A DNA stretch of 64,000 nucleotides from Stratiformator vulcanicus (GTDB lineage Bacteria; Planctomycetota; Planctomycetia; Planctomycetales; Planctomycetaceae): the NCBI RefSeq assembly GCF_007744515.1, contig NZ_CP036268.1, forward strand, positions 3,802,088 through 3,866,087, written 5' to 3'. A program made the position numbers and the translations under genes. How positions within the stretch are numbered: position 1 is the stretch's first letter; each line of letters begins with the position of its first letter. The notes below the pieces were generated by a model. It saw only the letters and a program-made list of their open reading frames with translations, was not told the DNA's origin and did not search any database. Of this stretch, positions 21,569-37,300 are shown piece by piece.

Positions 21569-23881
21569 TCAATCAATATCGATTGCAGCGCGTGATTTCT
21601 CAGCCGATTCGGAACTATCGATGAGGACGACACCCCATTGCGTGTTGGCCAACGTCCACTCCCGGCCCTCGAGAAAGACCGGTGCAAAGAGCGCCGGTCC
21701 GACTCTTCCGGTGACCGGATCGGAAAATTTTTCGATCATGTGCAGCGGTGTTCGCCGCAAGCGTTGCTCTTTATTCCACTGCCGCTCAGTCTTTTGAAAT
21801 AACTTGTCAACGGCCGTCACCAATTCCTGATCGACCTTGTGAATCTTAGGGCTGTGAACGGCATCGGAGTGGTGCAATATCCACCCACGCCCGGCCGAAA
21901 CCTCGTCGATTTCGTTTGGGCGAAGATCGATCACTGAGACGCGATGATTGCCCGACAATTGCTCTTTTAATTCGCCGAACTCGTTGACGCCGATCGACAA
22001 ACCTAACACCCCTAAGAACTGACGACCATCGGTGTCGTCCCAAATGGGGGCGGACAGCGCGACCTTTAATTCCGACGTGTTCGAACTGCGATAAACCTTC
22101 GAAAGGTTCGGCTGCCGGATGTATCGAATCGTGTCGGTCGGCTCGTCTGAACCCAGCCCGTGGAAGTAGTCGCGATATGCGTAATTGTTCTGCCCGACTG
22201 TCTCCTTATAAGGAAATCGACCGACCTGAAGACCATCGGCCCGACAGATGAACCAGCTCAGCGCGTTAGCGGCACGATGTCGGGCAACTCGGTCTCGAAA
22301 ATACGCATCGAGCCGATCGAGCGTCTCAGCGGATATCGATTCGCCTTCCTGATTGGCCGCCTTCATTAGCTTTAAGAAGGCCGGGCGAGACGTCTCCATT
22401 TCGAGAATTCGGAAGCGGTCGTTTTGCTTTAATGCAATCGTCTGCGCCGTCATTCGGGTCGCGAACTCCATCGACTCGTCCCGTGCGACACTGGCGGCCA
22501 AGACCGCCGCCTCCGCCGACTGCCGGGCCGTTGACTCCGCCTCGGCCTGCTCGACGCTCCGCCAGGCAAACAACGAACTGAGCACCGCGAGCACGACACA
22601 GGCCGCTCCCGCCGTGCGCATTAACCCGTAGTGGTGACGCATCCACCGCGAAACGCGGTGCCCCATTGTCTCATGCATGGCCTCCGTCGGTTCGTCGGCC
22701 AGATAGCGTTCGACATCCCGTGCCAGATCCGCTGCGGTTAAGTATCGCTCGCGATGTGACTGATGCATCGCTTTCAGACAGATCGCTTCTAATGAACGAT
22801 GAACCTGCTTACGGACCGTTCGCGGCTTCGGATAATCGGCGGCGACGGCAGCTTCGCGGATCTGCGAAAATCTCCTCATCCCCTGAAAGGGACTCTGGCC
22901 GGTCAGGATGAAATAAAGCGTGACGCCGAGAGAATAGACATCCGCCGCCGGCCCAAGGCTCGGGTCGTCCGTACACAGCAGCCGTTCCGGGCTCATATAA
23001 GGCACGGTGCCGCCTGGGTCGGAGCTGAGCCGCTCCGGCACGGGAGGGTCTTCCGAACGTGGCAACGTCCCCTCGACATCGCCTGAGTAATGCGAATCAC
23101 GGCCGGTAATCAAGGCCGAACCCCAGTCGCTGACGAGCGTCTCGCCGAAGCGACCGATTAGAATATTCTTGGGTTTAATATCGAGGTGCAGCACGCCGCG
23201 GGAGTGGGCGTATTCGATCGTGCGGGCGGCCGACATAAAGGAGTTGAGCAGCCGGCGAAAGTGGATGTCGTGACGGGCCCGCTCACCCCGATCCTGGGGT
23301 TGATGCCGATAGTATTCATTGACGGCTTCGTCCAGCGTCCCCTGCTCGAGATAACGCATCGCGTAGAACGGCTGACCGGTCGAGGCGTTGCGATCGCGTG
23401 CATAAATCGGCACGACGCCGGGATGATCGAGCAGGGCGGTGATCCGCGCCTCCTCGACAAATTGTTTCACGGCAAGTTCGGTGTCGACGTGATCCTGTTT
23501 CAGGAACTTCACCGCGACGGTTCGACCAAGCCGAATATCGGTCGCTTCATAGACTTCGCCCAGCCCGCCTGAACTGACAAGGTTTAAGTTGGTCAGACGG
23601 GTCGTGAGCTCAACATCTTCCATATTTTCGCTCGGCGGCGCCGGCGTCGTATGAGCCAGGTTCGTCGGCTGTTCCAGAAAGTCGTTGGCCCGTCGGAGTT
23701 GCTTGAGCTTCTCTTCGATGACCGGAATCGCCTCCGGGCAATCACGACAAAGTTGCGACGAACTGAGAACGACGCCCCTATCACAAGCGGCCTCCCACTC
23801 GTCGAGCAGGCGGTCGATCAGATCGTCGGGAGCTTTCGAATTATCCAACTCTTGCGAATTCTCGGAGGGTTCTGAGATCAT
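21569..23881 (-). CDS. transmembrane Ser/Thr kinase with extracytoplasmic Cache-like sensor domain
   Basis: ATG 23881 overlaps the sigma-factor stop (ATGA), giving 770 aa. Order: a ~90-residue N-terminal segment common in planctomycete kinases; a kinase domain with a degenerate glycine loop (SSGGLGEVY), Lys125 (AVKFLK), HLDIKPKN at 232-239 in place of HRD, and DWG at 252-254 in place of DFG; one membrane helix at about 420-440; then a ~300-residue external domain. That part (GRFPYKETVGQNNYAYRDYFHGL, YRSSNTSELKVALSAPIWDD, FLGVLGLSIGV) reads like a dCache ligand-binding module. Asp and Lys are retained, so activity is plausible. With the coupled sigma factor it looks like a one-operon sensory pathway. 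Confidence 0.92.
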   Translation of the reverse strand: MISEPSENSQELDNSKAPDDLIDRLLDEWEAACDRGVVLSSSQLCRDCPEAIPVIEEKLKQLRRANDFLEQPTNLAHTTPAPPSENMEDVELTTRLTNLNLVSSGGLGEVYEATDIRLGRTVAVKFLKQDHVDTELAVKQFVEEARITALLDHPGVVPIYARDRNASTGQPFYAMRYLEQGTLDEAVNEYYRHQPQDRGERARHDIHFRRLLNSFMSAARTIEYAHSRGVLHLDIKPKNILIGRFGETLVSDWGSALITGRDSHYSGDVEGTLPRSEDPPVPERLSSDPGGTVPYMSPERLLCTDDPSLGPAADVYSLGVTLYFILTGQSPFQGMRRFSQIREAAVAADYPKPRTVRKQVHRSLEAICLKAMHQSHRERYLTAADLARDVERYLADEPTEAMHETMGHRVSRWMRHHYGLMRTAGAACVVLAVLSSLFAWRSVEQAEAESTARQSAEAAVLAASVARDESMEFATRMTAQTIALKQNDRFRILEMETSRPAFLKLMKAANQEGESISAETLDRLDAYFRDRVARHRAANALSWFICRADGLQVGRFPYKETVGQNNYAYRDYFHGLGSDEPTDTIRYIRQPNLSKVYRSSNTSELKVALSAPIWDDTDGRQFLGVLGLSIGVNEFGELKEQLSGNHRVSVIDLRPNEIDEVSAGRGWILHHSDAVHSPKIHKVDQELVTAVDKLFQKTERQWNKEQRLRRTPLHMIEKFSDPVTGRVGPALFAPVFLEGREWTLANTQWGVVLIDSSESAEKSRAAIDID

Positions 23882-24570
23882 TTCGGTTTCCCGGGCTGCT
23901 CGGGCGCCAAACGCCCTGCCAACTCCAATTTTGCTGCCCGCCACCTTCGCCGGACTGTCCGAGCCGACGCGTCGAGCACCGTCGCGGCCTCCTCCTGAGT
24001 CAGCCCATGGTAATACAATAGATCGAACATCTCACGGCTGTCGTCGTCCAACCCTTCAACAAGCTGATGAAAATCGCTCCACTCGGCCAATGTATCGGGA
24101 CGATGTGTTTCCGATCCACCTTCATAAGGGAGTCGTGATTCGCTATCGCCCCCGCGGCCAGCGGCCTGAGTCTGGTGTTGGCGAGCCGCTCCTTCCGGAC
24201 CGAAATGATGCCTGGCCATGTCGATCATCGTGCGCCGCACGATCAGCGCGGCTGAGCGGTAGAAGTGCCGGGCGTCGACATAATCGCGACTGCGGACTTC
24301 TTCGAACAACTTGATCGCGACTTCCTGAAACACGTCCTCGGTCTGCTCCCAGCGATCGAGCCTGTCATAAGACAGCTTCACCCGGCGGACGATCGCCATC
24401 AGACGACGTTCGCACAGCCGAAATAGCTTATCGTCGGCACCTGGTTCCCCGCGCCGGGATTCCGCCAACAGGCTTTCGATCTCTTGGGATTCGGCTTCCA
24501 TGGGCAATGGGGGCGACGTGGCGTCAGACGGAACTGCAGGGGGTTTCTCAAAGGCTGACCTGTATCTCAT
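23878..24570 (-). CDS. ECF sigma factor coupled to the sensor kinase
   Basis: The 230-aa protein has region 2 (RWEQTEDVFQEVAIKLFEEV, RSAALIVRRTMIDMARHHFG) and region 4 with a helix-turn-helix (LLYYHGLTQEEAATVLDASARTVRRRWRAA). It matches the planctomycete ECF type (Sigma70_ECF, PF07638) that lacks an anti-sigma and is encoded with a Ser/Thr kinase, thought to control it by phosphorylation. Start ATG 24570; an ATG at 24501 would remove a proline-rich leader. The 4-bp overlap with the kinase implies coupled translation. The 361 bp upstream (24571-24931) contains no recognisable gene. Confidence 0.93.
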   Translation of the reverse strand: MRYRSAFEKPPAVPSDATSPPLPMEAESQEIESLLAESRRGEPGADDKLFRLCERRLMAIVRRVKLSYDRLDRWEQTEDVFQEVAIKLFEEVRSRDYVDARHFYRSAALIVRRTMIDMARHHFGPEGAARQHQTQAAGRGGDSESRLPYEGGSETHRPDTLAEWSDFHQLVEGLDDDSREMFDLLYYHGLTQEEAATVLDASARTVRRRWRAAKLELAGRLAPEQPGKPK

Positions 24571-24931
24571 GTCCCGGATCGATCACGGTCAAGGAACTGA
24601 CCGGGCTTTCTGCGAAAATTGATCAATCGACTGTGGAGAACCGAGGCTGGTGAAAATAGCGAATTGGGTACGGTCAGACAGACGAGACCGTCATTTCGTT
24701 CGGAAACCGGAAGGCAAGCAGAAGGTTTGCAAGAACCGAACTCGGCCCGTATCGAGCGGCAACAATAAATGCCTCACAATGCTCTTCAGATCGCGACCGA
24801 CCTGCGGCAAAGTACGATTCGCAGTCCTCGAGCAAGCCTTTTCTGCCGAATGATCTTCGCCGTTGGCTTTCGGCGTCACCGGGCAACATTATGGCCAAGC
24901 GTGGGTTGTCTTACTGCACCGCCACAATCGA
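24571..24931. other. intergenic region, nothing recognised
   Basis: This 361-bp stretch lies between the sigma-factor start and the end of the porin remnant. No frame gives a protein-like translation, and I see no tRNA, terminator or strong repeat. The sigma promoter presumably lies in its left part. Confidence 0.3.
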
Positions 24932-25453
24932 CTATAGAACCGGGTATCTGCCCGGTCGCATCGGTGTTTCTACCCGGTACTGTTCAACGGGCGAAATAGA
25001 AATTACCGGGCGAACCGAGCCTCGACCCGGATTCTTGGAGCGAAACAATACGCGAGCGCCGCCCGTCTTAAAATCGACCTGTGCCCGCAGGGCGAAGATA
25101 TCCGCATTGCTCGACGGAACGGCAGTGCCGTCGAGCAACGCGTGAATCCAGTTGAATTGAAACTTCGTGTGCTGATTTAAATACCAATTCAAGCCGACGG
25201 TCGTGTCGGTTAACCGATTGCCGGTCACGGGGTCGTCGTCGAGATCGATCCACGACAGCCGACCGGCGAGTTCCCAAGCTCCGAGCCCTCGGCCCCATCG
25301 AAACGACTGACGGGGCACAACGGCTCCGAACACGCCGGCCGCACGTTGATAGGGCCGCACCTCACCTGTTAGCAGCCAAGCAACCTGTCCGTAGGCAGAC
25401 CAGAATTCGTTTGTGTCTCCGCCCAATTCAAGTACTGCGCGGCCGAAATGACC
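24932..25453 (-). pseudogene. C-terminal remnant of an OprP/phosphate-type porin
   Basis: The frame ([68 protein letters not shown]) is a convincing C-terminal quarter of the planctomycete OprP/OprO-like outer-membrane porin (normally about 450-550 aa). The rest of the gene is absent: an in-frame TGA at 25454-25456 closes it upstream and no porin sequence follows in other frames. The natural porin end is ...RAQVDF. Here the stop is lost because a T-run has four Ts (minus strand, 25070-25073) where five would give TTT-TAA. Translation therefore runs on for about 45 non-porin residues. I read it as a decaying fragment. Confidence 0.8.
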
Positions 25454-25808
25454 TCAAAGTCGATGTCGCCAACCGCCGCACATTTATCAGCCTATCGCCT
25501 CAATCGGAATAATCGCCGCGACCGCTTGAGATCGTTTGATCGGTAAAGGTCGCCCAACCCCCACAATTTGACCACGGCCGCGGGATGACCTCTCGGGAAC
25601 CCTCTAAACATGCTTTGAGAGTTTTGGCTGCCAAACCTCATGACGCGCGAGAGAGTCGGTCCCTTCAGGACGCTCTTTCTGGCTCAGCCAAACCGGGCCA
25701 ATGGGCCGCCTCGGCGATGCCGATGAGTCCGGGACGATTTCAGGTTGAGGATTCCAAGGGATCGATGTCACAATGCGTTCGCCCCGTCGTGTTCCAAGAG
25801 GTCATTCG
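25454..25808. other. intergenic region before pcm
   Basis: No gene is convincing in this 355-bp stretch. It should hold the pcm promoter. Its left edge borders the porin remnant, so part of it may be derelict sequence. Confidence 0.3.
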
Positions 25809-27035
25809 ATGCGTCACCCGCGTTTCGCCTTTTTCCCGGTCATTTGTCTGGCTGCCTGTGGTGCGGGCCTGCACGTCACGAAAGCGTTCGCGCAAGACCG
25901 ATACGCTGGCGTCCGGGCTGAAATGGTCGCTGAATTCATTGAAGCGGAGGGCATCGACAATCGCAGGGTGCTGGCAGCGATGAGGACCGTGCCGCGTCAC
26001 CTTTTCGTGCGTCCGCCGATGCTTTCAAGGGCATACGAAGATGCTGCGTTAGCGATTGGTCATCGCCAGACAATCTCCCCGCCATTCGTCGTGGCCTATA
26101 TGACGCAGTCGATCGACCCGCAGCCTGAAGACAAAGTCTTGGAGATCGGCACCGGCAGCGGCTATCAAGCGGCCGTGCTGGCCGAATTGGTAAACGAAGT
26201 CTACACGATCGAAATTGTCGAACCGCTCGGCAAGAGCGCCGCCCGGGTGCTTAAACGGGTGAAAGCCGACAACGTGAAAACACGAATTGGCGACGGCTAC
26301 AAAGGTTGGCCGGAGGCCGCGCCGTTCGACAAAATTATCGTCACCTGCTCGCCCGAGAAAGTGCCACGACCGCTCGTCGATCAACTGGCCGAAGGCGGCC
26401 GAATGATCATTCCGCTCGGCGAGCGGTATCAGCAGGTGTTCTACTTATTCCGCAAAGAGAACGGGAAACTCGTCTCTGAAAAACTGATCCCCACGTTATT
26501 CGTTCCGATGACCGGCATCAGCGAAGACAATCGCGAGCAGAAGCCCGACCCCGCCAATCCGAGGGTCGTCAACGGCAGTTTCGAGATCGATGCGAATGAT
26601 GATGGGAAGGCCGACAATTGGCACTACCAACGGCGGACCGAACTTGTCGATGAGGGTGCCGCCGAAGGCTCGAGGTTTTTGCGGATCACCAACAGCGAAC
26701 CGGGGGAACTCTCTCAAGCGCTGCAGGGAATGGCGTTGGACGGGCGAGAGGTTCCCGCGATTCGGCTTATGGTCAAAGCGCGACCGCAGGGTGTGACGGC
26801 CGGCCCTGATCGCCGTCGCCTGCCCGGCCTGTCCGTCGTGTTCTATGACTCGATCCGCAAGGAAGTCGGCAGCGTCGCCCTCGGCCCGTTCGGCAGAACG
26901 GAGAGCGACTGGCGCACCTACGCCAAGACATTCCGCGTCCCCGCGAACGCCCGCGAAGCCATCATCCGCGTCGCCTTAAACGGCGGAGCGGGGACGCTCG
27001 ACATCGATGCGATTTCGCTGGAGGCGGTGCGTTAG
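25809..27035 (+). CDS. pcm: exported protein-L-isoaspartate O-methyltransferase with C-terminal beta-sandwich-like region
   Basis: ATG 25809 follows GAGG at good spacing and opens a signal sequence (FAFFPVICLAACGAGLHVTKAFAQ), possibly a lipoprotein signal (LAAC). The 408-aa product has a full PCMT domain at about 25-220: VPRHLFV, TISPPFVVAYMTQ, the SAM motif VLEIGTGSGYQAAVLAEL, and a C-terminal block (IPLGERYQQVFYLFRKENGKL). PCMT repairs isoaspartyl residues using SAM and is normally cytoplasmic, about 210 aa. Here a further ~170 residues (VVNGSFEIDANDDGKADNW onward) look like a CBM4/9-type beta-sandwich. An exported SAM-dependent enzyme is puzzling. Its stop overlaps the convergent small gene by 4 bp. 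Confidence 0.9.
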   Translation: MRHPRFAFFPVICLAACGAGLHVTKAFAQDRYAGVRAEMVAEFIEAEGIDNRRVLAAMRTVPRHLFVRPPMLSRAYEDAALAIGHRQTISPPFVVAYMTQSIDPQPEDKVLEIGTGSGYQAAVLAELVNEVYTIEIVEPLGKSAARVLKRVKADNVKTRIGDGYKGWPEAAPFDKIIVTCSPEKVPRPLVDQLAEGGRMIIPLGERYQQVFYLFRKENGKLVSEKLIPTLFVPMTGISEDNREQKPDPANPRVVNGSFEIDANDDGKADNWHYQRRTELVDEGAAEGSRFLRITNSEPGELSQALQGMALDGREVPAIRLMVKARPQGVTAGPDRRRLPGLSVVFYDSIRKEVGSVALGPFGRTESDWRTYAKTFRVPANAREAIIRVALNGGAGTLDIDAISLEAVR

Positions 27036-27262
27036 GCTTCGTTCGGCGCATTCGGAGTGATGTCCTTGGCCTCGTTCTGCCTGAAAAGAAGCTCGTTTCG
27101 GAGATTTTGGATCGAGAAATCGTCTGCCCAACGGTGGCGATCTACAGCGTAATCGCCTTCGCCTCGCTCAAATTGAGCCAGGAAGCGAAGCATGCCTCCT
27201 TGCCCAAGCCGCTCACGCAGGGCTTCGAGCCCTTCGCGTCGAATTTCTTCTTGCGTCTGCAT
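27032..27262 (-). CDS. small conserved protein of unknown function
   Basis: The 76-aa soluble protein (QTQEEIRREGLEALRERLGQGGMLRFLAQFERGEGDYAVDRHRW) resembles a family of about 70-80 aa proteins in cyanobacteria and planctomycetes with the pattern 'G-x-x-AL-x-x-x-LG-x-x-G-x-x-RF-x-x-QFE-x-G-x-GDY-x-x-[DE]RH-x-W'. Members are often beside toxin-like genes, so antitoxin is one possibility, but no partner toxin is present here. It is convergent with pcm (4-bp overlap) and divergent from ygfZ, whose start lies 107 bp away; both probably share a promoter region. Confidence 0.75.
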   Translation of the reverse strand: MQTQEEIRREGLEALRERLGQGGMLRFLAQFERGEGDYAVDRHRWADDFSIQNLRNELLFRQNEAKDITPNAPNEA

Positions 27263-27369
27263 CTTCGGTCTCTAATTCCGGCCGGATCTCGCCTCAGGTT
27301 GACGCAGGATACAGCGATCTCGTCGAATGTAGTTCGGAAAAATATCAGGTCCTTTCGGACGAAAAAGCT

Positions 27370-28359
27370 ATGTTGGATGCCAATCAAGATGGAAGTCCCG
27401 TTGATGGAGTCGATTGCGCTCAAGATCACACCCTCCTGTTCGACTTCCCCAACCGCACCCAGCTTCGGCTGACGGGGGACGATCGGGCGAAATTGCTGCA
27501 GAATCTCTGCTCGAACGACGTTTCAAAGTTGCAGCCGGGGCAGGGGTGTGAGGCGTTTCTCACGAACGTGAAGGCGCGAGTGCTGGGGCATATCTTCGTC
27601 TACGCTGCGGCAGACGAACTTTGGATCGACTCCGCCCCCGGACAGGAGGATGCCCTGTTCGAGCATCTCGATCGATACGTGATCACCGAGGACGTGACGA
27701 TCGAACGGATGACCGAGAGCCGGGGCGATCTGCTGCTCGTCGGACCGCAGGCGGAGTCGTTGTTGACGCAGTGCGATCTGATGCCCGCGGAACTGGAAAT
27801 CGGCCATCACGCGACACTCAGCGACGAGCATCACACGCAAGTCCGTTGCACCGGCTGGCTGAAGCAGCCGACCTTCGTCATTTCGTCGGGGACTGCTGGT
27901 TGTGCGGCTATTCGAGGTCGACTGACGGAAGCTGGCGCCAACGACGGAGACCCCAAAGTCTGGGACATCCTCCGCATCGAAGCTCTGTTCCCTGAGTTCG
28001 GGCGCGACATCACTGAAGACCGCCTCGCACCAGAAGTCGGTCGAAATGATCTCGCCATCAGCTACACGAAAGGCTGCTATTTAGGGCAGGAGCCGATCGC
28101 ACGCATTAAGGCACTCGGCCACGTGAACCGTGAGCTTCGGGGCCTTCTGATTGAGGGGCAATATGACGAACTTGCGGATGCACCGATCCTGGCGGATGGC
28201 AAGGAGATCGGTCGCGTCACGTCGTTCGTCGCGGTTCCGGGAGAAAATCGGACCGTTGCCTTGGGCTACTTGCGAATGAAATGGGCGGGCCCCGGCACGA
28301 CTGTCGAAATCGGAGACCAAACGCAAGCGATTGCGGCGAAAGTGTTTGCAAACGAATAA
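27370..28359 (+). CDS. ygfZ: YgfZ/GcvT-family folate-dependent Fe-S cluster protein
   Basis: The 329-aa cytoplasmic protein shows the T-protein-like fold and the diagnostic KGCYLGQE motif near residue 236, followed by a C-terminal beta-barrel segment (GEIGRVTSFV style). YgfZ uses a tetrahydrofolate-bound state to maintain Fe-S enzymes such as MiaB. The conserved cysteine of the motif is intact. ATG 27370 was used; the frame has no better upstream start. It stands alone: the next gene begins about 140 bp downstream. Confidence 0.92.
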   Translation: MLDANQDGSPVDGVDCAQDHTLLFDFPNRTQLRLTGDDRAKLLQNLCSNDVSKLQPGQGCEAFLTNVKARVLGHIFVYAAADELWIDSAPGQEDALFEHLDRYVITEDVTIERMTESRGDLLLVGPQAESLLTQCDLMPAELEIGHHATLSDEHHTQVRCTGWLKQPTFVISSGTAGCAAIRGRLTEAGANDGDPKVWDILRIEALFPEFGRDITEDRLAPEVGRNDLAISYTKGCYLGQEPIARIKALGHVNRELRGLLIEGQYDELADAPILADGKEIGRVTSFVAVPGENRTVALGYLRMKWAGPGTTVEIGDQTQAIAAKVFANE

Positions 28360-28501
28360 CGCACGCCCACGGCCGTTCAAACCGTTCGCCGATTGTCAGC
28401 AAGAATTCGCCCGTCGTCTGGTCGCGACGCGGCAACCGCGCGGTTACGATGGGTGAGATTCATTCCACCCACTTCCGCATTATTTCAGCGCCGCCCTCGC
28501 C

Positions 28502-29731
28502 ATGAGTCTCGGTCATAAATTGCAGCGACCGTTCCGCGCCGTCAGCCGTGCCGGTTTCGATTTCATCCATCCGCGGATTCTCATCTACAACCAGTGTTGG
28601 GAAGATCCGCGTCTCGATCGCAAGGCGTTGGAGCTCGGCCCGGACGACTCGGTCGCGATGATCACGTCGGCCGGGTGCAACGCGCTCGACTACGCGCTCG
28701 TCGGCCCCAAAGCGGTGCACGCGATCGACATGAATCCGAATCAGACGGCTCTGCTCGAGCTCAAGCAGACCGCGATTCGGAATTTGTCCTTCGAGGATTT
28801 CTTCGACCTGTTCGGCAAAGGGTCGTCGCCGCGTTGGAAAGAGATATACCGCGACACACTTCGCCCCGAATTGTCGGAACGCGCTCAGAAAATCTGGGAT
28901 CGCCAAGGCAGCTTTTTTGAGGTCCGGCGCAGGCGGTCGAGCTTCTACTTCCGCGGCTCCTCCGGCACGTTCGCGTGGATCGTCAACATGTACATCGACC
29001 GCATCGCCAAGGTGCGGGACGTCATTAACGAATTGCTCGAAGCCGAGTCGGTCGAGGCGCAGACCGAGATTTATCGCCGGCACCGCATGAACGAAATTTT
29101 CTGGAAGCCGATGCTAAAGTGGATGCTCCGTCGTGACGCGACACTCGCAATGCTCGGCGTCCCGCAGCCGCAGCGACGAATCCTCGACCAAGGATACCCC
29201 GGCGGCATCGTGCAATTCGTCGTCGATCGCGTCGATGAGGTCTTCACAAGACTTCCGCTCTCGGACAACTATTTCTGGCGGGTCTACTTAACCGGTTCGT
29301 ATTCCGAGGACTGTTGCCCGGAATACCTGACACGAGCGGGCTTCGATCAACTTCGAGACGGCGCCGTCGACCGGGTGCATCGCCATACCACGACCGTGAC
29401 CGACTTCCTGAACGGACACGACGAGCCGATCTCACGTTTTGTTTTGCTTGATCACATGGACTGGCTCAGCGTGCCGAAGCGCAAGCACCTGCTCGACGCC
29501 GAATGGCAGGCGATCGTCGACAGCGCCGCGCCGAACACGCGGCTGCTGTGGCGCAGCGCCGGACTTGATGTCGACTTTATTGATCCGATCGAGGTGACGA
29601 TCGACGGCGAACAACGACGCGTCGGCGATGTGCTCAACTACCACCCCGAATTAGCAGCCGAGCTTCACAAGATTGATCGAGTCAACACGTACGGCAGCTT
29701 CTATATCGCGGACCTAAATTCGTCGGCTTAA
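28502..29731 (+). CDS. btaA: BtaA-like S-adenosylmethionine:diacylglycerol 3-amino-3-carboxypropyltransferase (DUF3419)
   Basis: At 409 aa it matches BtaA over its length: FIHPRILIYNQCWEDPRLDRKAL and MITSAGCNALDYAL near the N-terminus, and DHMDWLS in the C-terminal half. BtaA transfers the 3-amino-3-carboxypropyl group of SAM to diacylglycerol, the first step of betaine lipid (DGTS) synthesis. The next genes are a SAM methyltransferase and an acyltransferase, exactly the context expected. Betaine lipids replace phospholipids under phosphate limitation in some bacteria. Confidence 0.92.
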   Translation: MSLGHKLQRPFRAVSRAGFDFIHPRILIYNQCWEDPRLDRKALELGPDDSVAMITSAGCNALDYALVGPKAVHAIDMNPNQTALLELKQTAIRNLSFEDFFDLFGKGSSPRWKEIYRDTLRPELSERAQKIWDRQGSFFEVRRRRSSFYFRGSSGTFAWIVNMYIDRIAKVRDVINELLEAESVEAQTEIYRRHRMNEIFWKPMLKWMLRRDATLAMLGVPQPQRRILDQGYPGGIVQFVVDRVDEVFTRLPLSDNYFWRVYLTGSYSEDCCPEYLTRAGFDQLRDGAVDRVHRHTTTVTDFLNGHDEPISRFVLLDHMDWLSVPKRKHLLDAEWQAIVDSAAPNTRLLWRSAGLDVDFIDPIEVTIDGEQRRVGDVLNYHPELAAELHKIDRVNTYGSFYIADLNSSA

Positions 29732-29867
29732 GATTGGCGCCCCCTATATGAACGCGACCAAACAAGCCCGACGCCCAAGCGAGGGACGCGAGGGAAAACT
29801 CACGAGTCTCTTCCGCGATTGACCGCCAACCGAAATTACTGATTCGACTTCGTTAAGACCATTCTCC

Positions 29868-30635
29868 ATGTCTGCTTCGGCCGGAATTTTTAACGACCTG
29901 CGCATCCTCTGGCAGCTCACGTTTAATCGCGTCAAAGGTGATTCCCACGCCGAGCGGCTCGAAAGTTTCTACCGGCATCAAGCCTCTGGGTATGACGCCT
30001 ATCGCCGCCGTCTGCTTCACGGTCGGACCGACATGATTCAATCCCTGCCCGTCGTCGAAGGCGGTACGTGGATTGATATGGGAGCCGGCACCGGCGAGAA
30101 CGTCGAGCACATGGGCGACAACCTTTCGAAATTTGGGAAGGTCTATCTGCTCGATCTCTGTAGGCCACTACTGAAAATCGGAGAGGAACGGGTTGCTGAA
30201 AAAAATTGGCAGAACGTCGAACCGGTCCACGGCGATGCCACCGCGTGGACGCCAACCGAAGGAGCAGGGCAGGTCGATCTCGTCACGTTCTCCTATTCAT
30301 TGACGATGATTCCCGATTGGTTCGCCGCGATCGAACACGCCTACCGCTTACTCAAGCCGGGCGGCACAATCGGGATTGCCGACTTCTACGTCGCTCGCAA
30401 ACACGCCGGCGAATCCGAACGTCGCCACGGCTGGCTGACCCGCGAATTCTGGCAGACGTTTTTCGCGGTCGACAACGTCTTCTTAAGTCCCGATCACCTG
30501 CCTTATCTCAAGAACCGGTTCGAAACGGTTCAAATCAAGGAACGTTTCGGGTCCGTCCCCATCGTCCCTTTCCTGTATGCTCCGTACTATATTTATCTGG
30601 GTCGAAAGCCCGATGACGTCGCAGCCCCGGAGTAA
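29868..30635 (+). CDS. btaB: BtaB-like N-methyltransferase
   Basis: This 255-aa class I SAM methyltransferase has motif I DMGAGTGENVEHM, motif II SYSLTMIPDW and post-motif IADFYV. It follows btaA by 136 bp and probably trimethylates the homoserine head group to DGTS. In some species BtaA and BtaB are fused; here they are separate. Specificity is inferred from the neighbour, since the family resembles other small-molecule methyltransferases. The acyltransferase gene begins only 5 bp after its stop. Confidence 0.85.
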   Translation: MSASAGIFNDLRILWQLTFNRVKGDSHAERLESFYRHQASGYDAYRRRLLHGRTDMIQSLPVVEGGTWIDMGAGTGENVEHMGDNLSKFGKVYLLDLCRPLLKIGEERVAEKNWQNVEPVHGDATAWTPTEGAGQVDLVTFSYSLTMIPDWFAAIEHAYRLLKPGGTIGIADFYVARKHAGESERRHGWLTREFWQTFFAVDNVFLSPDHLPYLKNRFETVQIKERFGSVPIVPFLYAPYYIYLGRKPDDVAAPE

Positions 30636-30640
30636 CAGCC

Positions 30641-31456
30641 GTGCGCAATTCCCGACCGAATCCGTTCTCTTATTCGCAGGAAATTGACGGTCGCTGGAAA
30701 CGGGTCCTCGCCCGGCAGGTGGAGAACCTCTCAGGTCTGCGAAAGCTCGGCCGGGTCTACGAAGAAGAGCGTCGCGAGGCCGACCGCTACCCCAACCCCT
30801 GGGCAGTCGCACTGGGGGCACTTGATTTGCGAGTGCATATCAGCGGGCCCGTCGAGGACATCCCACGCCAAGGGCCATTAGTCGTCATCGCCAACCACCC
30901 GTTCGGCGTGGTCGACGGCATGATCCTGTGTGATCTGATCGCCCGCGTCCGACATGACTACCGCGTGATCATTAACCGCGTCCTCGAATCGGTCGAAGAC
31001 ATCCGGCCCTACCTGCTGCCGATCGACTTCACCGGCACAAAAGAGGCCACGCGGGTTAATCTGGAGTCACGCAAACAGGCTCGCCAATTCTTAAAAGAGG
31101 GCGGCTGCGTCATCCTGTTTCCGGCCGGCGGCGTCTCGACCTCCAAAGGCCCCCTCGGCCCCGCCGTCGACCCCGAGTGGGGCACCTTCGCAGCGAGACT
31201 GATCTTACAGAGCAAAGCCGACGTCCTACCGGTCTACTTCCACGGCCAAAACTCCCGCCTCTTCCAAGTCGTCAGCCAGTTCAGCAAAACACTAAGGCTC
31301 GCCCTGTTGGCCCGCGAGGTGCGCAAAAAGGTCGGCGAGGCGGTGGAGGTCACCGTGAGACCAGTTTGCCATTTCCGCGACTATGCCGAAATAAACGACG
31401 CGCAAACGCTCACGACAACGCTTCGTAGAGCGGTTGACGGAAAGTCGACTTGTTAG
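30641..31456 (+). CDS. PlsC-like lysophospholipid acyltransferase
   Basis: The 271-aa protein carries an acyltransferase motif NHPFGVVDG (His86, Asp92) and a downstream FPAGGVSTSKG block, as in the LPLAT/hemolysin-type acyltransferases. By my count the motif is H-x5-D, as in the NHPFGGLDG subgroup, instead of the classic H-x4-D. It starts 5 bp after btaB, so all three genes are probably one transcript. It may supply or remodel the diacylglycerol backbone for betaine lipids. A hairpin terminator follows at 31465-31495. Confidence 0.88.
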   Translation: MRNSRPNPFSYSQEIDGRWKRVLARQVENLSGLRKLGRVYEEERREADRYPNPWAVALGALDLRVHISGPVEDIPRQGPLVVIANHPFGVVDGMILCDLIARVRHDYRVIINRVLESVEDIRPYLLPIDFTGTKEATRVNLESRKQARQFLKEGGCVILFPAGGVSTSKGPLGPAVDPEWGTFAARLILQSKADVLPVYFHGQNSRLFQVVSQFSKTLRLALLAREVRKKVGEAVEVTVRPVCHFRDYAEINDAQTLTTTLRRAVDGKSTC

Positions 31457-31519: not shown

Positions 31520-32500
<981 letters not shown>

Positions 32501-32562
32501 GATATCCTGAAGTGTTAAGTTATTTGGCATTTCGCCAATGGGCCGAATGAAACGAACACCTT

Positions 32563-33606
32563 TTAAAAGGCTCCAATTGAATTACCGTCGCGACGATTTG
32601 CGAGACGCTGAAACACGCCGGAGTTGGCATTTCGACCGTCCACGCCGCTGACGAACTCAATATTTTCGCTGATGAAATGCACGGAGCCGTCGGCCATGAC
32701 GAACTGCATGCCGCCAGCATGAGAGCTCGCGTAAGTTCGGCGGAAACTATCATCTGAACTGCAGTTAGCCTCGACCGGGTTGAGAGGACAGCTCGTGGCC
32801 AGATTCATGACTGAGGTCAGTCCTGTCCAGCCATAGCCCGTTCCTTCAAGAATCGAAGGCGATGCATAGATCAACGCACCGTTCTTGCGTGGCGTGTAGC
32901 CGTCTCGATAGGCCCAGACGCGTTCGCCGAGAGCTATCGTGTTACTTGTACCGTCGGAAATGTCTCCGGTATTAAGAGATAGGCCAATCCCGAAGACGCC
33001 GTCGAACGAGGTTGGTCGTTTCTTCTGCGTCTTTTTGAACAAGGCACGCGGCGTTGTATTCCCTTCGTCCTGCTCTTCGAAATAACCCCGACTCGTCGAC
33101 GTATCTTCGAAGTTCGCCACGTAATTACTAGAAGCGTGCGAATCGCCGTTAATCTCATTTGCACTATTAAGTTTCGGCATCTCATCCGACGGACACAGAA
33201 AGACCGGCAATGATGTTTGGAGTGCCGAGAGCGGCGAACTCGAAACGGGAAGCACTGTCATTTCGAGTTGTTCGTATAACGGCTGTTGATCGAGGAACGG
33301 CAAAATCCGCGCCCCCCAAGCCCAAACACCACTGGCGTTTTGCAATGCGTTGTAATTCGTAGTCGAATTATTGAGCCAGGCGTTGTTCGGCGTTACGCCG
33401 GGCGGAAAAGCGCTGTTCGCGTCGTGGTAGTTATGCAGTGCCAGCCCCAACTGCTTTAAGTTATTCTTGCACTGACTCCGACGCGCGGCCTCTCGAGCCT
33501 GCTGAACGGCGGGAAGCAACAACGCGATCAATATCGCGATGATTGCGATGACCACCAGCAACTCGATCAGAGTGAAACCACGTCTTGTCCCTAATTGATC
33601 AGTCAT
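32563..33606 (-). CDS. DUF1559 prepilin-like protein, cluster gene 4
   Basis: I prefer ATG 33606 ([17 protein letters not shown], 347 aa) to the TTG start 15 bp upstream. It has the prepilin helix and C-terminal [25 protein letters not shown]. The first ~110 nt of the conserved segment are identical in DNA to cluster gene 3 (33476-33585 against 34548-34657), including synonymous positions, while the remainder diverges strongly. That is a sign of recent gene conversion. The middle region has a lysine-rich patch (FKKTQKKRPTSFDG) not seen in the other copies. Confidence 0.93.
   Translation of the reverse strand: MTDQLGTRRGFTLIELLVVIAIIAILIALLLPAVQQAREAARRSQCKNNLKQLGLALHNYHDANSAFPPGVTPNNAWLNNSTTNYNALQNASGVWAWGARILPFLDQQPLYEQLEMTVLPVSSSPLSALQTSLPVFLCPSDEMPKLNSANEINGDSHASSNYVANFEDTSTSRGYFEEQDEGNTTPRALFKKTQKKRPTSFDGVFGIGLSLNTGDISDGTSNTIALGERVWAYRDGYTPRKNGALIYASPSILEGTGYGWTGLTSVMNLATSCPLNPVEANCSSDDSFRRTYASSHAGGMQFVMADGSVHFISENIEFVSGVDGRNANSGVFQRLANRRDGNSIGAF
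33476..33585. repeat. 110-bp gene-conversion tract, copy in cluster gene 4
   Basis: This stretch is identical base for base to 34548-34657. It codes the prepilin cleavage motif, helix and AREAARR of two neighbouring DUF1559 genes. Sequence on both sides differs. Confidence 0.85.
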
Positions 33607-33670
33607 TATTTTCAACAACAATTAAAGGATCGGCTCGTCAATGAAATACTTGCCATTACTCTCGCCAGCA

Positions 33671-34693
33671 CTAGAAGGCTCCCACCGTGTTACCATCGCG
33701 ACGGTTCGCCAAGCGTTGAAAGACGCCCGAGTTCGCATTACGACCGTCGAGACTCGTCGAGAAATCAATGTTCTCGCCGATAAACTGAACTGAGCCGTCC
33801 GCCATCGCGAAGTGGACGCCCCCCGCGTGAGCGCTGTGATAAGTCCAATCATAATCTTGAGAACAGGTGGCCGCGGTCGGATTGAGGCCGCATCTGGACG
33901 CCAGACCGAAGACCGAAGACCCCGCGGAATCAGTCTGAATGATATTGTTCCCTTCAAGGACCGAGCGAGCCCCATAGATTGTGCCAGCCTCTGCGATTGT
34001 ACCGTCTTTTAAAGCCCACGCGCGTTCGCCAATCGCAATAGTATTGCTCGACCCGTCCGAAATATCGGTCACTTTAATCCCGACTGAGTAAACGAGCACC
34101 CCATCTTGGTTTCCGTTTGTATCCAGCTTCGCACCCTCGGCGTTGGCATACTGCCGCGTGTCATCGAAGTTTCCGACATAGTTCGAAGTAGCGACCGAAA
34201 TCGTTGTCCCCCCACCGCCACTTGCGGTATTGAATGTACGGCCTGAATTGACCTCAGGGGCTTCGTCCGACGGACAGCGGAAGACGTCTAGACCTCGCTC
34301 GATATCATCACGATCAGCGACGCGGCTCAGAAAATGAACATTGTTGATATTCAATCGCTCGTACAACGCTTGTTGTTCCAAGAATGGCAGCAAACGAGCC
34401 CCCCAGCTCCAAAACCCGACATCGGGGTCATTTCGGTGATTTGCTGGGACCGAGGTTGGATTAACCATTCCGATCGGAAACATGCCGTTGGCATCATGGT
34501 AGTTGTGTAAAGCAATGCCGAGCTGCTTCAGATTATTCTTACACTGGCTCCGACGCGCGGCCTCTCGAGCCTGCTGAACGGCGGGAAGCAACAACGCGAT
34601 CAATATCGCGATGATTGCGATGACCACCAGCAACTCGATCAGAGTGAAACCACGTCTGCCGGAATCTTTAATTGTTCGTCGATTATTGACCAC
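33671..34693 (-). CDS. DUF1559 prepilin-like protein, cluster gene 3
   Basis: GTG 34693 follows GAGGGG with good spacing, giving 340 aa. It contains the prepilin helix, [15 protein letters not shown], a serine/glycine-rich loop ([20 protein letters not shown]) and C-terminal [25 protein letters not shown]. Closest in sequence to cluster gene 4. Its N-terminal 110 nt are shared exactly with that gene. Confidence 0.93.
34548..34657. repeat. 110-bp gene-conversion tract, copy in cluster gene 3
   Basis: Identical to 33476-33585 in the next paralogue (same strand, about 1070 bp apart). A direct repeat of this length can also mediate deletion of the intervening gene by recombination. Confidence 0.85.
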
Positions 34694-34743
34694 TGTTTCC
34701 CCTCGATGAGCTTGAGCGATTGACTTCGTTCGTATCTGAAGAA

Positions 34744-35748
34744 TTAGAACTTGCCGACGGTCATTCCATCCACTCGATTGACAAGCCGATTGAGGACACC
34801 AGAGTTGGCAAGCCGAGCATCGCCTGAGCTTCCGCAGCAGGTGAAGGAAATGTTTTCACTCAGAAAATGGACCGACCCGTCACCGAACACGAACTGGGAA
34901 CCACCGGCGTGCTTGCTGCTGAATCCATTGCCAGCAGCACGGCGTGCCTCGGTCTCATTGGTGTCGAAGTCGCCAACACCGGCCCCGTTGATGCCGCCAT
35001 AGCCCAGCGTTGCGAACGCTAAATTGATCCCGTTACTGTCTTGCGCCCCGTTTAGCCGACGAGTGGCATAAGCAAATGCCCCGTATGCCCGGTTCGGATA
35101 GGAGGTGTCGACCTGAAAAGCCCGCTCGCCGACAAGAATGGTGTTACTCGTACCGTCTTTAATCATATCCAGGGTATAGGCGACATCGATTCCGAAAGCA
35201 CCACTAAACTCCTCCCGGTCGCCTATGATCCCTGATCCGCCCCAAGTATTTTGTCGCAAGATATCACTCGTACTGGAGACGTAGCTCGAATAGGCGGCAG
35301 GAACGTCATTGTTGAAGTCTTGAAACGGGTGAATCGGATCGACTTCGTCAGCCGGGCACCGATACTCCGCCATCGGAGTACTGATCAATGCGCCAGCCGC
35401 TTCAGGGCTCTGTCGTCCGGGTGAAAATTGATCGTAGAGTGGCGCCTCATCCATATACGGCAATATGAAGCAACTCCAAATCCAGTGCCCCCGCGTATTC
35501 GTGTAGCTCCCGTTGACGTTCGCCCCATACAGCCAAACCGATGCTCCGGTCGGCAGGTAGCCGAAGGTGTCACTGTAGTTATGCATCGCCAGACCAATTT
35601 GCTTCAAATTGTTTTGACAGGCACTTCGCTGCGCGGCGGCGCGTGCCTGCTGCACGGCTGGCAACAGAAGGGCGATCAGGATCGCAATAATTGCGATGAC
35701 CACCAGCAATTCGATCAACGTGAATCCACGAACCCGATCATGACGCAT
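34744..35748 (-). CDS. DUF1559 prepilin-like protein, cluster gene 2
   Basis: ATG 35748 follows GGAG at about 7 nt. At 334 aa it has the prepilin start ([39 protein letters not shown]). Note ARAAAQR in place of the usual AREAARR, which sets it apart. C-terminal [26 protein letters not shown] is the family signature, and a CC pair follows (SFTCCGSSG). The middle is tyrosine- and asparagine-rich. Confidence 0.93.
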
Positions 35749-35823
35749 GAGCTAACTCCAAACCAATTGTATGAATTCAGTACGAATGCCTTCGACGGCA
35801 AGAACCACTGAGGTGTTTCCGCG

Positions 35824-36933
35824 TTAGAATTTCCCGATGGGCTGACCATCATTCCGGCTGCAAAGCCGTTGCAAGACGCCATAATTTCTTGACGAAGGCG
35901 CACTGGGGGTGCCCCCAAGCGTCGGGTCGGCATCGAAGTCAATATTCTCACCCAAGAAGTGAACAGAGCCGTCGGCCATCAAAACGAACGCGCCCCCCGG
36001 ATGCTCGCTTCCGATCGCCCCCATCGTGTTCGGGTAACAGTTGCGGCGCTGCTCGTTATTGTCCCACGAGTCTATACTGTTGATTGGCCGGCCTCCTGTG
36101 GCAAGAACGGCGCCCTGCGTTCCCGAATGCGTGTAAAGTGTTGAAGTTGAGCACTGCGTTCCGGTCCGCCCCAGGTTCGAAAAACCGAGAGCAATTCCAG
36201 CCGCATTCCCGTAAGCCGGCTTTTGCCAACTCGCCAAACCGACTTGAACCTCGGGACCCCATGCCGCCTCGGCCATCGCGATCGTATTGCTTGTCCCGTC
36301 CGTGACGTCGCGTAACCGGAGAGAGGTATTAATTCCGAACAACCCGTCAAAGTTCGTCGACCCCTCAAGCGGTAAAGACCGGAATGCGTTAGAGTCATTC
36401 ATCGCCCGATAGTTCGATATCGCCAGAGCATAATTTAAGATGCCCGAGTGCTTAAGCCGCCGGGTGTTCAACTTGTCGGCACTCGTGCTCGGGCACCGAA
36501 ATGCGGGAAGAGCCTTCTGCAATTCATTCTGATTATTGCTGAGAGCCTGTTGAAAAGTCCGGTCACCCGGTTGCAGTGTTTTGAATAGTGCTCCCTGATC
36601 GAGGTAGGGCAAGATGAGCGAACCCCAACCCCAGTAACCTTGGCTGCCCGATTCGGTATCGCCTGAGCTGTTGTTATTGATCGCTGCGTTCGGGTCATTG
36701 GTGTGAGCGGAAGCCCCCATCGGAAACCGCGACAGCGCCTCATGATAGTTGTGCAGAGCCAACCCGATTTGCTTCAGATTGTTCTGACACTGGCTCCGCC
36801 TGGCCGCCTCGCGGGCTTGCTGCACGGCGGGCAGCAGCAGGGCGATCAGGATCGCGATGATCGCGATCACCACGAGCAGTTCGATGAGCGTGAATCCGCG
36901 GCGCGAGGCGCGAAGGCCGGCGTGGACCTGCAT
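35824..36933 (-). CDS. DUF1559 prepilin-like protein, cluster gene 1 (first)
   Basis: ATG 36933 has GGAG 6 nt upstream; the TTG 12 bp earlier is less likely. The 369-aa product is the longest of the five, with [18 protein letters not shown] and C-terminal [25 protein letters not shown]. Its third quarter has two cysteines ([15 protein letters not shown]) that may pair. As the most upstream gene of the leftward cluster, its 5' flank (36934-37300) probably carries the main promoter. Confidence 0.93.
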
Positions 36934-37300
36934 TCCGTTCTCCAATGATCAGAGTTTTCTGTGACGATGCACCCGGCTCGTGAAATTCTGCCGGCACATC
37001 GCGATGCGGGGAAATCCCGCAAGAAATTTTGAATTGTCTGCCCGATTCCACGTAGCGACGGGGGAAGTGAATACGCCCCTACGAAGACATACTACCTGCG
37101 ACTGGCCCTCTTATCAACACGTGCTGATATACTTCGCCCACTGAGGTAGCACCTGTAAATGCCGATCTCGCAGAAATATTCTCAAGAAATCTGGTCGGAT
37201 TGATAATTTTTGCCCAATTGACGTTCGACCAGATTCTGCGACGATGCCGCGAACCTCATGATTTCTGAGTCCCCTCCTGCCCAACGCCGAGGACACCGAT
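36934..37300. other. divergent intergenic region
   Basis: This 367-bp gap lies between the DUF1559 cluster start and the DJ-1 gene. I see no gene, tRNA or strong inverted repeat. Promoters for both directions presumably lie here. Confidence 0.35.

Follow-up and report, generated by a model that had tools for sequence, protein, structure and literature searches.

A signal-bearing protein-L-isoaspartate O-methyltransferase with a C-terminal CBM-type fold in the planctomycete Stratiformator vulcanicus

The locus

The window analyzed here is a stretch of 64,000 nucleotides from Stratiformator vulcanicus (contig NZ_CP036268.1, positions 3,802,088 to 3,866,087). It contains an open reading frame at 25773..27035 on the + strand, with an in-frame ATG at 25809 and a product of 408 amino acids, in which an export signal is followed by a complete PCMT domain and a beta-sandwich tail. 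The individual features are:

25809..25892, + strand: predicted signal peptide, 28 amino acids if cleavage follows AFA (sequence and clade pattern)
25920..26516, + strand: PCMT catalytic domain, residues 38-236 (PF01135, E 1.3e-58; 3lbf, Z 32.4)
26067..26078, + strand: QTIS motif, identical in all 24 tail-bearing orthologs
26136..26168, + strand: SAM motif I, VLEIGTGSGYQ, mature residues 82-92 (G86, G88 and G90 present in all 101 signal-bearing rows)
26211..26216, + strand: Glu135-Ile136, mature E107 I108 (residue counts in signal-bearing versus other rows)
26292..26297, + strand: predicted SAM/SAH-binding Asp-Gly, mature D134 G135 (alignment; role according to the available sections of PMC11522691)
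26541..27032, + strand: C-terminal beta-sandwich tail with predicted CBM16/CBM4-type fold, residues 245-408 (model m2fc5ed2f8b64, pLDDT 95.2; Z 16.6 to 2zey and 4d0q)

Directly 3' of the PCMT gene, at 27370-28359 (+), lies a GcvT-type gene whose product we take to be YgfZ-like, and the same arrangement is found in five other loci. Besides this GcvT/YgfZ-like gene in six loci, the window included, no conserved operon was found in the window's family, and the neighbor is probably unrelated to the PCMT. Genes for a DUF3419 protein, a UbiE-like methyltransferase and an acyltransferase follow in series at 28502-31456 (+), a row that we take to be reminiscent of betaine-lipid synthesis (BtaA/BtaB). 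At 31520-36945 (-) five pilin-like secreted proteins, presumably of the DUF1559 type, stand in tandem with a common start sequence, and at 21569-24570 (-) a Ser/Thr kinase that matches Cache weakly adjoins an ECF sigma factor. A part in anti-phage defense (PADLOC mads_2) was rejected, as only part of the profile is matched (positions 260-421 of 492), and Pfam scans of seven window proteins at 21569-31456 gave no defense gene.

Catalytic domain and active site

Residues 38-236 match the PCMT profile PF01135 with 198.6 bits against a curated cut-off of 20.3, and the protein scores 234.5 bits against a cut-off of 188 for the NCBIfam model of protein-L-isoaspartate O-methyltransferase (NF001453). 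The nearest solved structures by sequence are the PIMTs from Vibrio cholerae and E. coli. AlphaFold2, run on 24 orthologs, yielded a mean pLDDT of 91.8 for the mature protein, and the fold aligns to E. coli PIMT (3lbf) with a Z score of 32.4 and an rmsd of 1.7 over 205 residues (VIA-align). By all sequence and fold tests that could be run, the predicted protein belongs to the PCMT family. It is like the known members (PF01135; E. coli 3lbf, V. cholerae 4l7v, P. furiosus 1jg1) in fold, SAM motif and isoaspartate-contacting residues, but adds an export signal and a C-terminal domain; what is new for a PCMT, as read from the gene, is thus its predicted place and the additional domain.

As described in the available sections of PMC11522691, PIMT holds the isoaspartate by a threonine and a serine, and SAM or SAH by an Asp-Gly pair. 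The isoaspartate-contacting residues correspond to T60 and S62 of the QTIS motif (mature numbering), and these two, together with D134 and G135, are invariant in all 24 tail-bearing orthologs. The full set of T60, S62, G86, G88, G90, D134 and G135 is retained in 95 of 101 signal-bearing and 55 of 57 other rows, counted after removal of two very divergent rows (L226, L227); the six signal-bearing rows that depart from it are L036, L038-L041 and L219. Judged by these alignments, the substrate- and SAM-binding residues are intact, and with the key residues kept to this extent the possibility of a degenerate enzyme finds no support.

Signal-bearing PCMTs are separated best from all others by two columns, each of which adjoins a SAM-binding residue (E107 and D134/G135, respectively). 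Column 108 is an isoleucine in 98 of 101 signal-bearing rows versus an arginine in 38 of the 57 others, and column 136 is a tyrosine in 85 of 101 versus a threonine in 28 of 57. The window protein accordingly has Ile108 and Tyr136 where the signal-less PCMTs mostly have Arg and, in about half of cases, Thr, respectively. The SAM pocket may be altered in the signal-bearing proteins; because Ile108 is shared by 18 signal-less rows, 13 of which fall within signal-rich parts of the tree, the Ile108/Tyr136 pair is possibly a mere mark of lineage.

Export signal

The protein starts with MRHPRFAFFPVICLAACGAGLHVTKAFAQ, which reads as a positively charged n-region followed by a hydrophobic core. A signal-peptidase-I-like site is found at residues 26-28 (AFA, followed by Q), and a lipobox-like LAAC occupies residues 14-17; if the latter were used instead, the lipid-bearing cysteine would be residue 17. 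Note that all signal calls derive from a simple hydropathy rule of this analysis, not from SignalP. In family loci a hydrophobic segment lies directly before the catalytic domain, and by eye no conservation of its sequence is seen.

The clade of the window protein was defined by a tree of 160 PCMTs, not by hand, and 42 of its 44 rows carry a signal under the stricter version of the rule; in the two that fail, L042 and L113, the hydrophobic stretches are weaker. The same rule detected a signal in none of 20 lower-identity planctomycete PCMTs (L231-L250), a control composed of 16 additional copies and four sole copies. An earlier hydropathy count, less strict than the rule under which L042 also fails, had given a signal in 33 of 34 exported-type loci, with L044 as the exception; this count omitted L048, a cytosolic-type locus where the signal is absent and has no room, and becomes 33 of 35 if L048 is included. 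The mean net charge is 2.56 before the core, amino end included, and -0.43 in the 15 residues after it, and for 93 of the 100 distinct rows with a signal the former is the more positive value, which is the N-in/C-out pattern. As evidenced by these sequence patterns the predicted export signal is no artefact, and the comparison with other planctomycete PCMTs that the initial annotation had proposed bears out its reading of an exported PCMT.

With respect to processing, the 100 distinct signal-bearing rows contain a strict AxA pattern in 35 cases, a lipobox in 13 and neither in 54, and strict AxA occurs in 10 of 23 tail-bearing orthologs. With duplicates included, the lipobox expression matches 16 of 126 signal-bearing rows. 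The possible lipobox noted at the outset is thus present as LAAC but unconserved, and by sequence a lipobox is doubtful and no feature of the group. Lipoprotein-like signals (VLGC, VAAC, LLGC, LAGC) are seen in the tail-less exported PCMTs L043, L143, L147, L160 and others. Tat export as a rule was rejected, as only 11 of the 126 rows with a signal, counting duplicates, have RR before the core; the signal of L041 is twin-arginine-like.

In the literature, the Pcm of Bradyrhizobium is given as cytoplasmic in the available sections of PMC4287336. Among the open PMC papers searched, no title or abstract opening concerned an exported or periplasmic PCMT or a periplasmic supply of SAM, which is a weak negative.

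C-terminal domain

Modeled alone, residues 245-408 reached a pLDDT of 95.2. The best structural matches were a CBM16 (2zey) and a hyaluronan-binding module (4d0q) at Z 16.5-16.6, followed among others by CBM4 and CBM61, within a Z range of 13.8-16.6 and at 15-21% identity; CBM22 (4xuo) was matched in Foldseek only. The structure prediction thereby supports the beta-sandwich tail assumed in the initial annotation, whose 'CBM4/9 style' is right as far as the fold is concerned, but the tail misses the Pfam cut-off for CBM_4_9 (PF02018) with E 0.05 and 14.4 bits versus 25.9. With CBM16, CBM4, CBM61 and the pneumococcal hyaluronate lyase module (2zey, 4bj0, 2xom, 4d0q) the tail shares its beta-sandwich, differing from them by its low identity, its place below the family cut-off and the putative nature of its sugar binding. 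As modeled, the tail is of CBM-type fold. Note that many proteins without sugar binding share this fold, and that phage tailspikes, cyclases and other proteins are likewise among the structural matches.

Domains homologous to the tail are found at the start of other proteins, doubled in four of five that were fetched (L050-L053), and in three such proteins that were scanned (L050, L051, L054) a GH5 cellulase domain lies behind them. In Chryseobacterium, a PCMT gene is located upstream of a GH5 gene, in a predicted separate transcription unit (available sections of PMC5812240). In the planctomycete family f2 a tail-less exported PCMT is followed by a same-strand gene with a tail-type domain in seven of seven genomes (L036-L042). 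In the secreted proteins encoded there, of up to ~950 amino acids, a second tail-type domain is visible by eye; none of five scanned gave a Pfam match, and that of L042 had no sequence match in the PDB. The third gene at the four f2 loci scanned is epimerase/GDP-mannose-dehydratase-like. As far as the sequences go, the tail-type domain accompanies the PCMT, either fused or next door.

Another C-terminally extended PCMT is the fusion with an erythromycin esterase on pSymB of Sinorhizobium (CP140948, U8C33_15505; L076 6013-7989), from which the window protein differs in that the fusion lacks a signal by our rule (row L076_no) and its tail is unrelated (PF05139). In two signal-less planctomycete PCMTs, L208 and L241, the open frames extend 459 and 137 amino acids beyond the domain.

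Distribution and phylogeny

In the window's family an exported-type match is present in 33 of 37 genomes, 19 of which have both types and 14 no other PCMT match, and four of the 37 have the lower-identity type only. Altogether 46 of 59 genomes hold an exported-type match; three genomes of f4 have the lower-identity type only, and six of f3 have no match. As it is the sole PCMT match in 14 genomes, the exported PCMT is no decayed spare. The genome of S. vulcanicus itself also encodes a signal-less PCMT (L001).

The best 80 relatives were taken from a scan of one genome per species with the exported form as query. The tail occurs in 14 of them (L101-L113, L117), all in planctomycete-named records that include Blastopirellula marina DSM 3645 and Rhodopirellula solitaria, and is absent in 66; L137 has a different extension. 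The tail-less proteins are spread over Zixiibacteriota, Acidobacteria, Verrucomicrobia, Bacteroidota, Gemmatimonadetes, Deltaproteobacteria, Chloroflexota, gamma- and betaproteobacteria, among others, and signal-bearing close relatives were also seen under the record name Geobacter. A signal is found in 13 of the 14 tail-bearing and 54 of the 66 tail-less proteins, in total 67 of 80 (65 by the earlier rule), which is no frequency, as these relatives were picked for their similarity to the exported form. Of 25 genomes from this set, a signal-bearing copy is present in 24, of which 17 also encode a signal-less one. In even samples the same rule gave a signal in one of 29 Bacteroidota loci (the phylum of G306, Salinimicrobium) and in five of 21 Planctomycetota loci, with the caveat that L359 and L360 are fragments and L350 looks like a miss. 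Among 246 evenly sampled Planctomycetota genomes, 21 matched the tail; 15 of these belong to the window's class, and the matches in the six others are weak.

With signal-bearing relatives across many phyla, the planctomycete cell plan, suggested at first as an explanation for the exported enzyme, was discarded as the cause. Plasmid spread was likewise rejected: 491 plasmid records match, none over 80% of the protein length. On the tree of 160 PCMTs, 13 changes account for the signal label versus a mean of 48 after shuffling, with none of 500 shuffles as low; the tree was built by a quick method, 83 of its 157 inner branches are open and the starred branches force only four of the 13 changes. 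The 44-row planctomycete clade has an SH-aLRT of 97. A single origin of export may be compatible with this tree, the deep branches of which are weak.

A membrane protein near tail-less exported PCMTs

In 16 of the 66 tail-less loci among the best 80, a membrane protein of ~800 amino acids (alignment A3) is encoded near the PCMT gene:

same strand, 3' of the PCMT gene: L140, L141, L142, L153, L154, L157, L164, L165, L166, L172, L177, L180
other strand: L148, L152 and L162 directly after the PCMT gene; L167 ~1 kb off

With start codons placed by eye, the gap between the two genes is about -1 to 27 bases in 10 of the 12 same-strand pairs, and 118 and 408 bases in the others. None of four A3 proteins scanned gave a Pfam match. 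Their center resembles spermidine synthases (profile versus 1uir, E 1.2e-8), and L172 matches NCBIfam PRK03612 with E 6e-13, below the cut-off. A simple hydropathy count gives 12-14 helices. In 11 of 16 proteins seven of these precede the central domain, and in 14 of 16 positive charges are commoner on the side opposite this domain; on this sequence pattern the spermidine-synthase-like domain is probably periplasmic.

A full-length A3 protein is encoded in seven of the 25 genomes, where its gene adjoins that of a signal-bearing PCMT in six cases and is ~1.1 kb from it in one; full-length copies at other sites in the 25 were not found. All of these loci except that of G315, the one new pair, had been counted among the 16. 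In the window genome there is no A3 match, and in 32 of the 59 genomes of the window's relatives the hits are all remote and incomplete (best E 1e-21) and fall mainly in the spermidine-synthase-like part; several lie in frames of 750-930 amino acids and may be remote members of the same architecture. A3 was rejected as a general supplier of SAM, being absent from the window genome and only distantly and partially matched in its relatives, and it stands as a candidate for a SAM deliverer or membrane partner limited to other phyla.

Proposed function and alternatives

Starting from the export signal, the intact catalytic and SAM-binding residues and the two folds that sequence and models provide, we infer location, activity, access to SAM, substrate and tail ligand as follows. 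On balance we consider it somewhat more likely than not that the protein is an extracytoplasmic, periplasmic or surface-located, protein-L-isoaspartate O-methyltransferase that repairs exported proteins and is held near glycans by its tail. A Sec-type signal peptide would take the PCMT out of the cytoplasm, where it would methylate isoaspartyl residues of aged, long-lived exported proteins, with SAM that reaches the outside as the methyl donor. In PIMT chemistry the methyl ester collapses to a succinimide that partially reopens as aspartate; in the same way the ester formed here would lead via the succinimide to partly normal aspartate, and no second enzyme would be required. The planctomycete tail would most likely hold the enzyme at a cell-surface or extracellular glycan or glycoprotein.

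The alternative that survives best, although we give it a rather low probability, is an exported methyltransferase with another substrate that esterifies carboxyls of extracellular glycans or glycoproteins, or of a molecule recruited by the tail. The CBM-type tail, the tail-type domains in common with GH5 proteins and the order of genes in f2 (tail-less PCMT, secreted tail-type protein and then a sugar-nucleotide dehydratase/epimerase-like gene, the last at the four loci that were scanned) point in this direction, as do columns 108 and 136, beside E107 and D134/G135, which are unlike those of most signal-less copies. However, the isoaspartate-contacting Thr and Ser and the PIMT fold are retained, 66 of the best 80 relatives lack the tail, and a recurring glycan-related neighbor was not found in the window's family.

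Less probable still, and in our judgment unlikely, is an exported but non-catalytic protein that binds isoaspartate or SAM/SAH, similar to PCMTD1 or to the inactive CI-PIMT of Paracoccus. In this case the problem of SAM supply would vanish, PCMTD1 is a structural neighbor (9oma, Z 21.6), and inactive relatives do exist: CI-PIMT (8qby chain t) shares the PIMT fold with Z 31.5 and, according to the available sections of PMC11522691, binds complex I at its hydrophilic domain and was judged inactive from the loss of Thr/Ser and Asp/Gly. Yet these very residues are kept here, as the four positions that the same sections describe as lost in CI-PIMT and RPA2580 are those that never vary among the 24 tail-bearing orthologs, and the glycines of the SAM motif are retained in 101 of 101 signal-bearing rows.

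A cytoplasmic enzyme, with the signal left untranslated by a start at Met39 or acting as a reverse anchor, is very unlikely: Met39 is indeed in frame, the position is Met in 17 of 24 tail-bearing orthologs and the signal classifier is a simple hydropathy rule, but since it is Leu in the other seven and the stretch from the hydrophobic core to domain position +9 lacks ATG, GTG and TTG alike in 6 of 126 signal-bearing rows, a downstream start, the point on which the initial annotation would have given up export, is available in the window protein and yet does not account for all of the set; Met39 moreover lies inside the first helix of the fold, about half of which such a start would delete, the signal is seen in 42 of 44 clade rows versus none of the 20 lower-identity copies, and the charge asymmetry would direct the domain outwards.

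The source of the methyl donor

SAM is regarded as a cytoplasmic cofactor, and for the favored reading of an exported repair enzyme the question of its source, raised already from the first inspection of the sequence, is a genuine one. The literature searched contained neither a pool nor a supplier of SAM outside the cytoplasm. In the genome of S. vulcanicus there are 37 matches to PF13649, of which 30 were fetched; 29 frames of class-I methyltransferases were read from them, L305 and L307 being one gene and L303 having been dropped because its frame was not found. As the PCMT is the only one of these 29 frames with a convincing signal, next to three weak flags (L281, L287, L294), these frames give no hint that SAM is used more widely on the outside.

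A broader scenario is conceivable, though we hold it to be improbable, in which many phyla run extracytoplasmic repair methylation on an outside pool of SAM. The exported lineage would be marked by the Ile108/Tyr136 pocket signature and, in several phyla, would probably be co-transcribed with the 12-14-TM protein, the spermidine-synthase-like domain of which would be periplasmic and could deliver SAM; planctomycetes would instead have added a glycan-binding tail.

The exported form is conserved in a class of planctomycetes and has signal-bearing relatives across phyla. An exported SAM enzyme with an intact site would mean that the cofactor can be had outside the cytoplasm or else that the repair fold serves another use there, and if isoaspartate is indeed what it repairs, long-lived exported proteins would have an ageing repair of their own.
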